A stretch of 64,000 nt of DNA, taken from the NCBI RefSeq assembly GCF_000183745.1, contig NC_014761.1:1798001-1862000 (forward strand). Direction: 5' to 3'. Below, in pieces: positions 4,252 through 10,682 of the stretch. Below the pieces are notes generated by a model. That model had not been told where the DNA came from. It worked only from the letters and a program-made list of their open reading frames with translations, and searched no databases. Within the stretch, counting starts at the first letter, position 1, and the number at the start of each line of letters is the position of its first letter. The translations under genes were made by a program, and so were the position numbers. This stretch comes from Oceanithermus profundus DSM 14977. Lineage in GTDB: Bacteria; Deinococcota; Deinococci; Deinococcales; Marinithermaceae.

Positions 4252-5361
<1,110 letters not shown>

Positions 5362-5374
5362 AAAGGAGAAGGCG

Positions 5375-6157
5375 ATGGTACGCAAACCCGCAGTGGCCGG
5401 AAGTTTCTACCCGGCCGAACCCATGCAGCTGGCCCGGATGGTCGACGAACTCCTGGCCATGGCCACCAGGCCGCCCGCCCACGCCCCCAAGGCGGTGGTG
5501 GCCCCCCACGCCGGCTACGTCTACTCGGGACCGGTGGCGGCGTACAGTTTCCGGGCGCTCGAGCCGCTGGCCGGAAAGACCCCTACGGTCTTCCTGATGG
5601 GCCCCGCGCACTACCTCGCCTTCGAAGGGGTTTCCACCGGAACCTACACCTACTGGGAAACGCCCCTGGGGCAGGTACCGGTGGACACCGAGCGCGTGGG
5701 GGCGCTGCTCGAGCGCTCGGCGCTCTTCACCACCGCCGACGAACCCCACCAGCCGGAACACAGCCTGGAGGTGGAGCTGCCCTTCCTGCAGGCCGTCCTG
5801 GGCGGGTTCAAGCTGGTGCCGCTGCTCTTCGGGCTGGTCGACCCGCTGGCCGTCGCCGGCCACCTGGAGGCGGTGCTGCGCCCCGGGGACGTGCTGGTGG
5901 TGAGCACCGACCTCTCCCACTACCACCCCGACGCCGAAGCGCGGAAGCTCGACGCCGCCACGCTGGAGACCGCCCTGGCGCTGGACGCCCGGGGCCTCTC
6001 GCACCGCGAGGCCTGCGGCCGTCACCCCTGGGCCGCCCTCACCGCGCTGGCCGACCGGCGCTCCTGGCGGCCCGAGCTCCTGGCCTACGCCACCAGCGGC
6101 GACACCTCCGGCGACCGTTCGCGGGTCGTGGGCTACGCCGCGCTGCGTTACGACTGA
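5375..6157 (+). CDS. amrB: AmmeMemoRadiSam system protein B (Memo-like, LigB fold)
   Basis: A 260-residue member of the MEMO1 family, related to non-haem-iron class III dioxygenases. Visible signatures: RKPAVAGSFYP at the N-terminus, APHAGYVYSGPVAAYSF, LMGPAHYLAFEGVS, EHSLEVELPFLQ and VVSTDLSHYHP, giving the conserved histidines of the metal pocket. A good AAAGGAGAAGGC site precedes the ATG. It is second in the triad operon. Family proteins bind metal, but the bacterial reaction is not settled. Confidence 0.9.
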   Translation: MVRKPAVAGSFYPAEPMQLARMVDELLAMATRPPAHAPKAVVAPHAGYVYSGPVAAYSFRALEPLAGKTPTVFLMGPAHYLAFEGVSTGTYTYWETPLGQVPVDTERVGALLERSALFTTADEPHQPEHSLEVELPFLQAVLGGFKLVPLLFGLVDPLAVAGHLEAVLRPGDVLVVSTDLSHYHPDAEARKLDAATLETALALDARGLSHREACGRHPWAALTALADRRSWRPELLAYATSGDTSGDRSRVVGYAALRYD

Positions 6158-6169
6158 ACCTATGAAGCC

Positions 6170-6751
6170 ATGAAGGAAAACCTGCTCAACCACGAGGAAA
6201 AACGAAGGCTGCTCGACGTGGCCGAGTCGGCCATCGAAAACGCCCTTAACGGCGGTCCGCTGCACCCGCCGGCGCTTGCGGGCCTGCCCCCGCGGCTGGC
6301 GCAGCCGGGGGCCAGCTTCGTCACCCTCACCCAGGGCGGGCGGTTGCGCGGCTGCATCGGCAGCCTCGAGCCGGTTCGGCCGCTGGCCGAGGACACCCAC
6401 CGCAACGCCCTGGCCGCCGCCTTCCGCGACCCGCGCTTCCCTCCGCTCGCGGCGCACGAGTGGCCGCGCACCGACGTGGAGGTGAGCGTGCTCTCGCCGC
6501 CCGAGCCGCTTCCGTACGAGAGCCTGGACGACCTGATCCGGAAGCTCAGCCCGGAGATGGGGCTGGTGCTCGAGCATCCGCGCGGCCGCGCCACCTACCT
6601 GCCCCAGGTCTGGCAGCAGCTGCCCGACCCCGAGCGCTTCCTGGCCTCGCTGGCCCAGAAAGCCGGGCTTTCCCCGAGCGTCTACGCCGACCCCGCCACC
6701 CGGCTCGCCTTCTACACGGTCGAGAAGTTCACCCGCCGCGACCTGGCGTAG
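6170..6751 (+). CDS. amrA: AmmeMemoRadiSam system protein A (AMMECR1 domain)
   Basis: A 193-residue AMMECR1-domain protein. The diagnostic LRGCIG motif is at residues 59-64, followed by the usual AFRDPRFPPL and EVSVLSPPEPL segments and GRATYLPQVW. Function of the family is not established. It lies 12 bases after the Memo-like gene. The 3' part of this gene has a diverged second copy at 6889-7116, and the gene immediately downstream in both copies is (or was) the arginine kinase, so amrA-argK adjacency existed in two diverged lineages. Confidence 0.9.
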   Translation: MKENLLNHEEKRRLLDVAESAIENALNGGPLHPPALAGLPPRLAQPGASFVTLTQGGRLRGCIGSLEPVRPLAEDTHRNALAAAFRDPRFPPLAAHEWPRTDVEVSVLSPPEPLPYESLDDLIRKLSPEMGLVLEHPRGRATYLPQVWQQLPDPERFLASLAQKAGLSPSVYADPATRLAFYTVEKFTRRDLA

Positions 6752-6769
6752 GCCTATACTCGGGGCGAG

Positions 6770-6880
6770 ATGGCCTACCCCAACCCCGGCGGCGGCTCGC
6801 TGCTCGCCCGCTACCTGACCCCCGAGGTCTGGGCCGAACTCGAGGACCGCGAGACCCGCTACGGCGTGCGGCTCGAATAA
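6770..6880 (+). pseudogene. 5' fragment of an arginine kinase gene
   Basis: Thirty-six codons then a stop (MAYPNPGGGSLLARY onward), closely matching the first 36 codons of the intact kinase at 9082, with about 12 differences in 107 bases by eye. The upstream TATACT box (6755-6760) is also at the same nine-base distance as in the intact copy (9067-9072). After GTGCGGCTCGA the match ends abruptly and the reading frame stops. This is the remnant of the original arginine kinase gene next to amrA. Confidence 0.85.
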
Positions 6881-6888
6881 ACCAGCAT

Positions 6889-7116
6889 GATGCCTTGATC
6901 CAGAAGCTCACACCCGAGATGGGCCGGTGCCCAAAACACCCGCCCGGCCGCGCCACCTACCTGCCCCAGGTCTGGGAGCAGATTCCCGATCCGAAACGCT
7001 TCCTGGCCTCACTGGCCCGGAAAGCCGGACTTGACTCTACGGTGTACAGTGATCCTACTATTAATTTTTCTGTTTATTATGTTGATATTATTAAGTATTT
7101 GCTACGTCGGGTATAA
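6889..7116 (+). pseudogene. Diverged 3' fragment of an AMMECR1 gene
   Basis: Seventy-five codons without a start, homologous to the end of amrA: LIQKLTPEMG, GRATYLPQVWEQIPDPKRF and LASLARKAGL match amrA residues from about 121 on. The first 155 bases are GC-rich like the host. From about 7042 the DNA turns AT-rich, while the protein still aligns (VYSDPTINFSVYYV against VYADPATRLAFYTV). The last bases overlap the 3' end of the convergent reverse-transcriptase gene. It is a piece of a foreign or paralogous amrA brought in with the RT segment. Confidence 0.8.
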
Positions 7117-8985
7117 ACGCGCTGATACTCCACCCCGACCTTTACGCGAAACGCCGAGCAGGCGATCTGCCGCTCTTATATGCCTTTTCCATTTGAATAT
7201 TTCTATTTTTCTATCCCACATTTCTTGAATAAGTTCGCCAATGCCTTCTCCTGAGTTTTTAATCGGTATTTTCAACTGATCTACGTCAGGCCATGGAGCG
7301 AAATGCAAGCTATAGTAGAAAAGCCAGTCTTCACTTTTAAATGCATCTTCCATAGTAGAAAAGCGGGCAATTGAGGTTTCCGAATTGTCGATACGGTATT
7401 TTAGATTAACTATATAGCTCTTCACTTTTTCTGATCCTATCTGCTTCGACCACCAATATGAATAGCTGAGCAACTGCAATATTGTTACCGTGTCACGTAC
7501 TGTAGCAAATAACTTATCCATAATTTCATCCGAGATCAATATTTTGAAATGCATAGCTAACCACAGACTCCATGCAAGTTCAAAATGGTGATCGCTCAAC
7601 ACCGTCGCATTATCTATTATATTCTCTAACGCTACTTTTAAATACTTAGGGCTGTATCTTTGCCATTTTTCATACCACAAATATACGTCAGTGATTACAT
7701 CTATATATTGAGGATATGCCGTGAGTAGAGAACTAAGTTGCATATCTAAATACAAATAATATTCTTTTTGATCATTCATTAAATATGGTTTACCGTAACC
7801 CTTTGATGGGTATATTCGATTATTAAAATGTAATCTTCTAAGACCGTAAGTAATGACAGATTTATGTGGATTTTCATCTTGCAGTTGCCTAATAATCGCT
7901 AAATAATTTTTCAAATTCCAATAATCTATTTCAATGTATTTAAATTTATCTCTTTTTGCATATTTTCTATCTTGTTCACTAAACTCGTACATCTTTTCTT
8001 GCCCATCTGGCATAAAACTAGATATTCTTTCTGTCCAAGTATCATGTCGTATAGACGATGTTGTCGTCACGTTGAACTTCGCCTCATTAGGTGTTAAATT
8101 CCAAATGCGAAATGCTTTTCTTGCAGCTGCTAGAATCTCCTGAGGATTGCTATTAGTATATATGTGTATATCATCAACATGCCTAATTATAAAGAAATCG
8201 CCGTGCTTTCTTTGCTTAAGTTCTGCTATAAGACTTTTTATGATTGCTTTCCCTATTAACTCGGCAGCAACAAATGATGAATCTGGACCAATTGGAATAC
8301 CATATGTTTCAGCTGATTGAGCAGACCTTATGACGGTATCCAAGCTCCTTCCAGCCTCATAGCGCTCCTTCTCATCACTAGAGCAATTATTGCATTTATT
8401 TTTTGCATTATCTTTTCCAGCCAGCGCCCATTCAAATGAATGTGTATATATTGATGAGTAATATGATTGTATATCAACTTTAACCATATATTTATACGCA
8501 ATATGTATGCTATCCAATAGCGTGGAAATATTCGTATGTGTCATCGCGGGATTTATATACCGTATTTTTTCAGGATCCTCGAGCGGTAAGGAGGATTCAA
8601 TACAGCATTCGATATCTTCTACTAGCACCGAGCGGAAGAGTGGCCATCTATTTTTCAATTCGGTTCCAATACGGATTATTGAAACGGGATTCAATACGTG
8701 GCCAATGCGCCTCCTACCTTCGATTCCCGGTCGGGGAAATGTAAATACCACCGGGGCAAATTTATCGTTGGTGCCGATAGCTAAATTTGTTATAGTACTT
8801 ATCTTTTGAGATAAGGAGTGCATAGAAAATGACGGGGGGAGGCCTGCAGGCAATGCACCGTAACGGATAAATTTTAGTAAACTCCACTTCTTAGGAATTA
8901 AACCCGGTAGTGAATCCAACTGCATGTTGCGTTTATACTTATCACGAAACCGTCCTTGGAACTTATTTGTGCAGGCCTTTCCCAT
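7102..8985 (-). CDS. Abi/DRT-like (unknown-group) reverse transcriptase
   Basis: A 627-residue RNA-directed DNA polymerase with strongly AT-rich codons in a GC-rich genome, a clear sign of transfer. RT motifs: A, VKVDIQSYYSSIYTHSFEW (168-186, D171); B, GIPIGPDSSFVAAE (229-242); C, RHVDD (268-272); D-like, LTPNEAKF (297-304). The SIYTHS and GIPIGP words are typical of abortive-infection and defence-associated RTs (AbiK/AbiA/DRT, 'unknown group') rather than group II intron or retron RTs. Residues 310-627 have no maturase or HNH motif and look helical, as in that class. Motif C has histidine where Y/F is usual. The ATG at 8985 lies five bases after a TAATAT box. No partner protein gene is adjacent, so it would be a single-protein system, possibly with a non-coding RNA. 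Confidence 0.8.
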   Translation of the reverse strand: MGKACTNKFQGRFRDKYKRNMQLDSLPGLIPKKWSLLKFIRYGALPAGLPPSFSMHSLSQKISTITNLAIGTNDKFAPVVFTFPRPGIEGRRRIGHVLNPVSIIRIGTELKNRWPLFRSVLVEDIECCIESSLPLEDPEKIRYINPAMTHTNISTLLDSIHIAYKYMVKVDIQSYYSSIYTHSFEWALAGKDNAKNKCNNCSSDEKERYEAGRSLDTVIRSAQSAETYGIPIGPDSSFVAAELIGKAIIKSLIAELKQRKHGDFFIIRHVDDIHIYTNSNPQEILAAARKAFRIWNLTPNEAKFNVTTTSSIRHDTWTERISSFMPDGQEKMYEFSEQDRKYAKRDKFKYIEIDYWNLKNYLAIIRQLQDENPHKSVITYGLRRLHFNNRIYPSKGYGKPYLMNDQKEYYLYLDMQLSSLLTAYPQYIDVITDVYLWYEKWQRYSPKYLKVALENIIDNATVLSDHHFELAWSLWLAMHFKILISDEIMDKLFATVRDTVTILQLLSYSYWWSKQIGSEKVKSYIVNLKYRIDNSETSIARFSTMEDAFKSEDWLFYYSLHFAPWPDVDQLKIPIKNSGEGIGELIQEMWDRKIEIFKWKRHIRAADRLLGVSRKGRGGVSARLYPT

Positions 8986-9066
8986 TTACCATATTAAACA
9001 TTGCCTGTCTCTATTCTTGCAAGGGAATTTGAACGTTGGGAAATCATCCCCCTCGTCCGGCATGAC
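8986..9066. other. AT-rich spacer upstream of the RT and kinase genes
   Basis: Divergent spacer that must hold the RT promoter on the minus strand (TAATAT at 8991-8996, with TTGCAA about 20 bases further upstream). No gene is present. Such a position upstream of an unknown-group RT is where a short associated RNA could lie, but no convincing structure is visible by eye. Confidence 0.4.
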
Positions 9067-9081
9067 TATACTTAGGTAGAG

Positions 9082-10104
9082 ATGACCCTCCCCAACCCTC
9101 AGGGCGGCTCGCTGCTCGCCCGCTACCTGACCCCCGAGGTCTGGGAACAACTCAAAGACCGCGAGACCCGCTACGGCGTGCGGCTCGAGCACGTCGTTGC
9201 CTCGGGGCTCAAGAACCCCGACAGCGCCGTGGGCGTCTACGCCGGCGACGAGGAAAGTTACACCCTCTTCGCCCCCCTCTTCGACCCGATCATCGCCGAC
9301 TACCACGGCTTCGGACCGGAAGCCCGGCACGAAAGCGACCTCGAGCCCGCCCACCTGAACGCCCCCAACCCCGACCCCGAGGGCCGCTACGTCGTCTCCA
9401 CCCGCATCCGCGTGGCCCGCAACCTCTGCTGCTTCCCCTTCGGCTCCGCGCTCACCCGGCGCGAGCGGCGCATCGTCGAGGCGACCGTGGTGCGCGCCCT
9501 CGAGGATCTTTCCGGCGAGCTGGCGGGCAGCTACCATCCGCTTTACGCGATGGACCGGGCCACCAGGGAGCGGCTGATCCAGAGTCACTTCCTCTTCAAG
9601 GAGGGCGACCGCTTCCTTAAGGCCGCGGGGCTGAACCGCGACTGGCCCGACGCCCGCGGCATCTTCCACAACCCGGACAAGACCTTCCTCGTCTGGGTGA
9701 ACGAGGAGGACCAGCTGCGCATCATCTCGATGGAGCCCGGGGCCAACCTGCAGCGCGTCTTCGCCCGGCTGACGCGGGCGCTGGCCGAGCTGGAGCGCCG
9801 CCTGACCTTTGCATTCTCCGAGCGCCTCGGCTACCTGACCAGCTGCCCCACCAACCTGGGCACCGCCATGCGCGCCAGCGTCCACGTCCGCCTGCCCGGG
9901 CTGGCGGCGGACGAAGCGCGGCTGAAGGCCCTCGCCGCAAAGCACGGCCTGCAGGTGCGCGGCACCCACGGGGAGCACTCGCAAAGCGAGGGCGCGGTCT
10001 ACGACGTTTCCAACAAGCAGCGGCTGGGGATCACCGAGGTGGAGGCCGTGCGGCGGCTGGCCGAAGGGGTGGCCGCGCTGATCGCGGCGGAGCAGCGGAC
10101 TTAA
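9082..10104 (+). CDS. Arginine kinase (ATP:guanido phosphotransferase)
   Basis: A full two-domain phosphagen kinase of 340 residues, transferring phosphate between ATP and a guanidino substrate, most probably arginine. The N-terminal helical domain carries the FDPIIADYHGF signature (67-77), absent from the single-domain protein-arginine kinase McsB. The catalytic domain has STRIRVARNL (106-115), WVNEEDQLRI (205-214), the active-site cysteine C255 in LTSCPTNLGTAMRASVHV, and GTHGEHSQSEGAVYDVSNKQ (nucleotide loop). Substrate is inferred; creatine or other guanidines are not excluded. Such kinases are common in animals and rare in bacteria. A TATACT box is at 9067-9072. A 5' fragment of a second copy is at 6770. 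Confidence 0.88.
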   Translation: MTLPNPQGGSLLARYLTPEVWEQLKDRETRYGVRLEHVVASGLKNPDSAVGVYAGDEESYTLFAPLFDPIIADYHGFGPEARHESDLEPAHLNAPNPDPEGRYVVSTRIRVARNLCCFPFGSALTRRERRIVEATVVRALEDLSGELAGSYHPLYAMDRATRERLIQSHFLFKEGDRFLKAAGLNRDWPDARGIFHNPDKTFLVWVNEEDQLRIISMEPGANLQRVFARLTRALAELERRLTFAFSERLGYLTSCPTNLGTAMRASVHVRLPGLAADEARLKALAAKHGLQVRGTHGEHSQSEGAVYDVSNKQRLGITEVEAVRRLAEGVAALIAAEQRT

Positions 10105-10400: not shown

Positions 10401-10682
10401 ATGGCCTACATTGTATACATTTTGTCCAACCGCAAACGCGGGACGTTGTACGTGGGCCTGACGCGCGACCTGCGCCGGCGTGTGTGGGAACACAAAGAAG
10501 GCTTAAGTAGTTTTACGCGCAGGTACGGCGTCCATCGCCTGGTCTACTACGAAGTTCACGAAGACGCAAACGCCGCTTTGCAGCGCGAGCAACAGCTAAA
10601 ACGCTGGCGCAGATCGTGGAAGGTGGAGCTCATCGAGCAATCGAACCCCGAGTGGGAAGACCTTTTTTCCTCGCTAGCTTAA
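10401..10682 (+). CDS. GIY-YIG domain protein
   Basis: A 93-residue protein made of a single GIY-YIG nuclease fold: YIVYILSNRKRGTLYVGLT supplies the two motif strands (as VYI and YVG), R26/R28 and H31 follow in DLRRRVWEHKEG, and a glutamate lies in the ALQREQQLKRW helix. Related small proteins (YhbQ/UPF0213 type) are often next to palindromic repeats, as here with the pair at 10123-10338. Cellular role unknown. The base composition is a little lower in GC than the neighbouring lysine genes, fitting a mobile or recently gained segment. Confidence 0.85.
   Translation: MAYIVYILSNRKRGTLYVGLTRDLRRRVWEHKEGLSSFTRRYGVHRLVYYEVHEDANAALQREQQLKRWRRSWKVELIEQSNPEWEDLFSSLA

Follow-up and report, generated by a model that had tools for sequence, protein, structure and literature searches.

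A divergent UG12/DRT6 reverse transcriptase encoded in an AT-rich insert of the thermophile Oceanithermus profundus

Introduction

The DRT6 family comprises reverse transcriptase (RT)-like enzymes that are thought to stop phages through template-free DNA synthesis. The class 1 systems studied so far act without a nucleic acid template (PMC13174585). Priming in AbiK, which forms hexamers, occurs from Tyr44 (PMC9508834), and AbiA primes from tyrosines of the loop that links its RT and helical domains (PMC11077055). Reviews describe DRT4 as making random ssDNA and name ORF55 as its trigger, which activates DRT6 too; the published characterisation of the DRT6 product is incomplete (PMC13213688, PMC13314766). 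O. profundus 506T grows at 40-68 C with an optimum of 60 C, and no CRISPR repeats are listed for it (PMC3111992).

In this study, we analyse a stretch of 64,000 nucleotides of the O. profundus DSM 14977 genome (NC_014761.1, positions 1,798,001 to 1,862,000), called the window throughout. A preliminary description of the window had proposed that it carries an AT-rich, Abi/DRT-like RT as a transferred single-gene defence system, perhaps of a lineage not yet described in thermophiles. We show from profile scores, phylogeny, the predicted fold and the catalytic motifs that the window RT is a divergent member of UG12/DRT6, a family already named and structurally solved, and not a new lineage.

Results

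RT gene and catalytic core

The RT gene is an open reading frame of 627 codons with an ATG start and no internal stop (Table 1), a length that would stay open by chance with a probability of about 5e-21 at the base composition of the gene. The words SIYTHS and GIPIGP, already singled out in the preliminary description, lie at residues 178-183 and 229-234. In an alignment of 72 sequences (the window RT and 71 relatives) all 18 invariant columns are retained, N300 among them, and the polymerase active site is intact, with D171, D271, D272 and K303 present. The window RT matches 62 of the 89 conserved columns, the fewest in the whole set, and three family positions conserved at more than 95% are altered, namely 226 (Q to E), 249 (D to I) and 559 (E to S), of which E226 is also found in its sister protein from a Trueperaceae metagenome-assembled genome (MAG). 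It is the most divergent UG12/DRT6 member among those sampled here. The HVDD form of the catalytic motif was considered as an oddity of this protein and dismissed, since histidine occupies that position in 20 of the 72 sequences. The only Pfam match was RVT_1, under its cut-off, and the Pfam search found no maturase, HNH or further domain, as the preliminary description had held.

Family placement

Of the PADLOC models, Drt6 (PDLC03748) ranks first with 238 bits, the next model reaching 194, and lower scores are given by UG15/Drt4 (PDLC03752, 150 bits), Drt3b (95 bits), AbiP2 (88 bits) and AbiK (72 bits). The UG15 profile is thus not the best one for the window RT, and the NCBIfam Drt4 model yields 127 bits against a cut-off of 450. 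Membership of AbiK is contradicted by the low score and by the lack of any tyrosine in residues 54-91, the fingers loop from which AbiK is primed. Group II intron, retron and DGR profiles of NCBIfam score about 14 bits or less and no family cut-off is passed, so that the placement named beforehand as refuting an Abi/DRT-like RT did not occur. Reference proteins of AbiK, AbiP2, Drt3b and UG15 each favour their own PADLOC model, and the 20 UG12-like relatives scanned score 441-610 bits with Drt6. On some UG12-like RTs (L074, L060, L063, L109, L100, L051, L041 and L047) the PADLOC "Drt4" models PDLC02177 and PDLC02179 beat the Drt6 model; the tool labels Drt4 and Drt6 therefore overlap.

A single-sequence scan of genome contigs with the window RT found no relative, and the 80 relatives used here were fetched from genome contigs by a query with a conserved-core alignment. 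None of them is more than 45% identical to the window RT, even across a short core segment, and full-length identity to 71 relatives is 20-28%. Other class 1 RTs were found in viral contigs, phages and plasmids, none of them closer to the window RT.

Predicted structure

The single-chain model, built with 72 sequences, has a pLDDT of 84.9 and a pTM of 0.88. Its best match in the PDB is the hexameric DRT6 structure 9wy8 (E 3.5e-24, TM 0.88 of target), at about 20% identity when the two are aligned by structure, followed by UG15/DRT4, AbiK and Abi-P2, with group II, retron and DGR RTs far lower. Some 270 residues at the C-terminus are helical in this model, in line with the long helical part noted beforehand. 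The linker from the RT to the helical domain measures 57 residues, four of them tyrosines, vs 30-43 in all 71 relatives.

Phylogeny and distribution

In two trees the sister of the window RT is the RT of the Trueperaceae MAG (L036), with support of 100/99 and 28% identity. The branch of the window RT is 2.48 long vs 0.61 for this sister, which scores 441 bits with Drt6, inside the UG12-like set. A single clade of the UG12-like proteins and the window RT is not rejected (p-AU 0.51); the deeper forks of the trees are weakly supported and some branches are long, which leaves the exact depth of the window RT uncertain. The distribution is sporadic, with a UG12 match in 2 of 111 Deinococcota genomes, and the window RT is the sole RT of the O. 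profundus genome by the RVT_1 profile. Orthologues, which the preliminary description had suggested looking for in other Thermaceae, were not found among the Thermaceae sampled, the nearest relative being the one in Trueperaceae.

Insert and genomic setting

The RT gene is the sole cargo of an AT-rich insert between an AMMECR1 gene and a phosphagen kinase gene (Table 1). Rfam gave no match near the RT gene, which still leaves room for an undescribed RNA. In four Oceanithermus species the junction is empty, AMMECR1 and kinase lying 22-26 bp apart; together with the RT-only insert, this agrees with the transfer of a single gene put forward before. In a fifth species the same junction holds an unrelated insert of 1.1 kb with 50% GC, where the 3' end of AMMECR1 is again repeated (L142). 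This other insert contains a 169-aa ORF without a Pfam match.

Table 1. Features of the RT locus (positions within the window)
Feature	Position	Strand	Remarks
Native AMMECR1 gene, left neighbour	6170..6751	+	PF01871
Phosphagen kinase 5' fragment and short upstream region	6754..6876	+	87% to 9066-9188
AMMECR1 3' fragment, diverged	6889..7047	+	78% to 6527-6685
AT-rich insert	7048..9065	.	2,018 bp, GC 0.376; sole cargo is the RT gene
DRT6/UG12-type RT gene	7102..8985	-	627 aa; palm/fingers ~36-310; helical C-terminal domain ~355-610
Tyr-rich insert, ~20 residues	7930..8010	-	inside residues 326-352, in the RT-to-helical linker; beta hairpin in the model, with low confidence
Catalytic core	8170..8478	-	motif A VDIQSYYSSIYTHS (170-183, D171), GIPIGPD (229-235), HVDD (269-272)
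Upstream region of RT gene	8986..9065	-	TAATAT 5 bases before ATG; M21 alternative start
Two-domain ATP:guanido phosphotransferase gene (arginine-kinase-like), intact, right neighbour	9082..10104	+	PF02807 and PF00217

The AMMECR1 fragment is 75-77% identical to every copy of the genus, about equidistant from all, and contains a probable frameshift pair, so that import and local decay are indistinguishable. The insert may have arisen by tandem duplication, with the RT landing in the second copy, or foreign DNA may have been taken up and joined by homology at one end and illegitimately at the other, a route known from naturally competent bacteria (PMC3240628). A scan for promoter consensus sequences upstream of the RT gene yielded no more than chance and did not pick up TAATAT, which would fit a leaderless start, though weakly.

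The neighbours of the RT gene are of housekeeping type, and some relatives adjoin defence-type genes (SIR2, HerA, LmuB or AAA/helicase). The rhizobial DRT6 RT genes (L026, L027) come after genes for an AAA ATPase and an ATP-dependent helicase that recall Gabija pairs. Adjoining the insert, genes for a radical SAM protein, Memo and AMMECR1 stand in a row at 4252-6751 as an AmmeMemoRadiSam-like cluster, and a small GIY-YIG domain protein of 93 aa is encoded at 10401-10682. Phosphagen kinases that, like the right neighbour, carry an N-terminal as well as a C-terminal ATP:guanido phosphotransferase domain seem to be uncommon in bacteria.

Base composition

The gene is indeed AT-rich in a GC-rich setting, with a GC of 0.378 and a GC3 of 0.346 vs 0.679 in the flanks. 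UG12-like RT genes are more AT-rich than their own flanks at 77 of 80 loci (L035-L114), so AT-richness alone says little on the donor and was discarded as a mark of special origin, being a family trait; the gap seen here, 38% GC vs 68% around, is among the larger in the family.

Discussion

The window RT is probably, in our judgement, a defence-associated RT of class 1 that forms a single-gene system, was gained by horizontal transfer, belongs to a deep branch of UG12/DRT6 in Deinococcota and has a mechanism like that of DRT4 and AbiK. Like DRT6, which gives both the best profile and the best fold, it is a single gene for an RT and a helical domain with a SIYTHS/GPD/xVDD core; unlike DRT6, it has the Tyr-rich linker insert, a thermophilic host and several near-invariant positions changed. 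DRT4 (UG15; 9vdo, 9l9s), from which the mechanism is borrowed, shares the fold and the single-gene plan but scores lower (150 vs 238 bits), and in the tree the UG15 reference stands on a separate branch. AbiK and Abi-P2 have in common with the window RT the class 1 fold, with a template-independent, protein-primed model; they differ in their far weaker scores and, for AbiK, in the tyrosine of the fingers loop. The Trueperaceae RT shares the HVDD motif and a position between housekeeping genes, but has no linker insert and occupies another site (isopropylmalate dehydrogenase / aminotransferase).

By analogy with DRT4 and AbiK, the protein would assemble as a trimer or hexamer and make untemplated ssDNA primed by one of its own tyrosines. 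During infection, a phage DNA-binding protein may stabilise this ssDNA and render it toxic, with the cell or the phage being stopped. Phage resistance is what the family leads us to expect of the window RT. Conservation singles out no priming residue: the C-terminal tyrosine column of UG12 (Y in 48 and F in 18 of 72 sequences) holds phenylalanine in the window RT and its sister, and the fingers loop has no tyrosine, as in 18 of the 72 sequences, one of them a fragment. That the Tyr-rich hairpin supplies the priming tyrosine, as the AbiA linker does, which would make this a thermophilic DRT6 branch with its priming site moved within UG12, we regard as distinctly unlikely.

The imported DRT6 gene could instead be a fast-evolving relict, its frame open and its function being lost in this host. 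The long branch, the loss of near-invariant non-catalytic residues and the fragments of neighbouring genes around the RT gene would suit such decay, against which stand the retention of every invariant residue including the catalytic aspartates, the confidently predicted fold and the length of the open frame, though a recent arrival could also leave a frame open; on balance this is unlikely. A separate class 1 UG group next to UG12, differing from it in product and trigger, would account for the very low identity, for a Drt6 score far under that of the scanned UG12-like proteins and for a linker insert of its own, but the strongly supported sister scores within the UG12-like set, and we hold this to be very unlikely. 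A retron, DGR or group II intron RT is extremely improbable: the general RT fold and weak matches are all that such an assignment shares with the protein, which has no maturase domain, lies beside no recognised RNA, and whose profile scores and fold matches for these classes fall far under those for DRT6, DRT4 and AbiK.

The horizontally acquired DRT6 RT widens the known sequence range of a family that was itself already known. That two Oceanithermus species carry different inserts at the AMMECR1/kinase junction suggests a small site where genes are gained. Coming from a host with a growth range of 40-68 C (PMC3111992), this class 1 DRT could be a source of heat-stable DNA polymerase that works without a template, and could serve well as a target for structural work.
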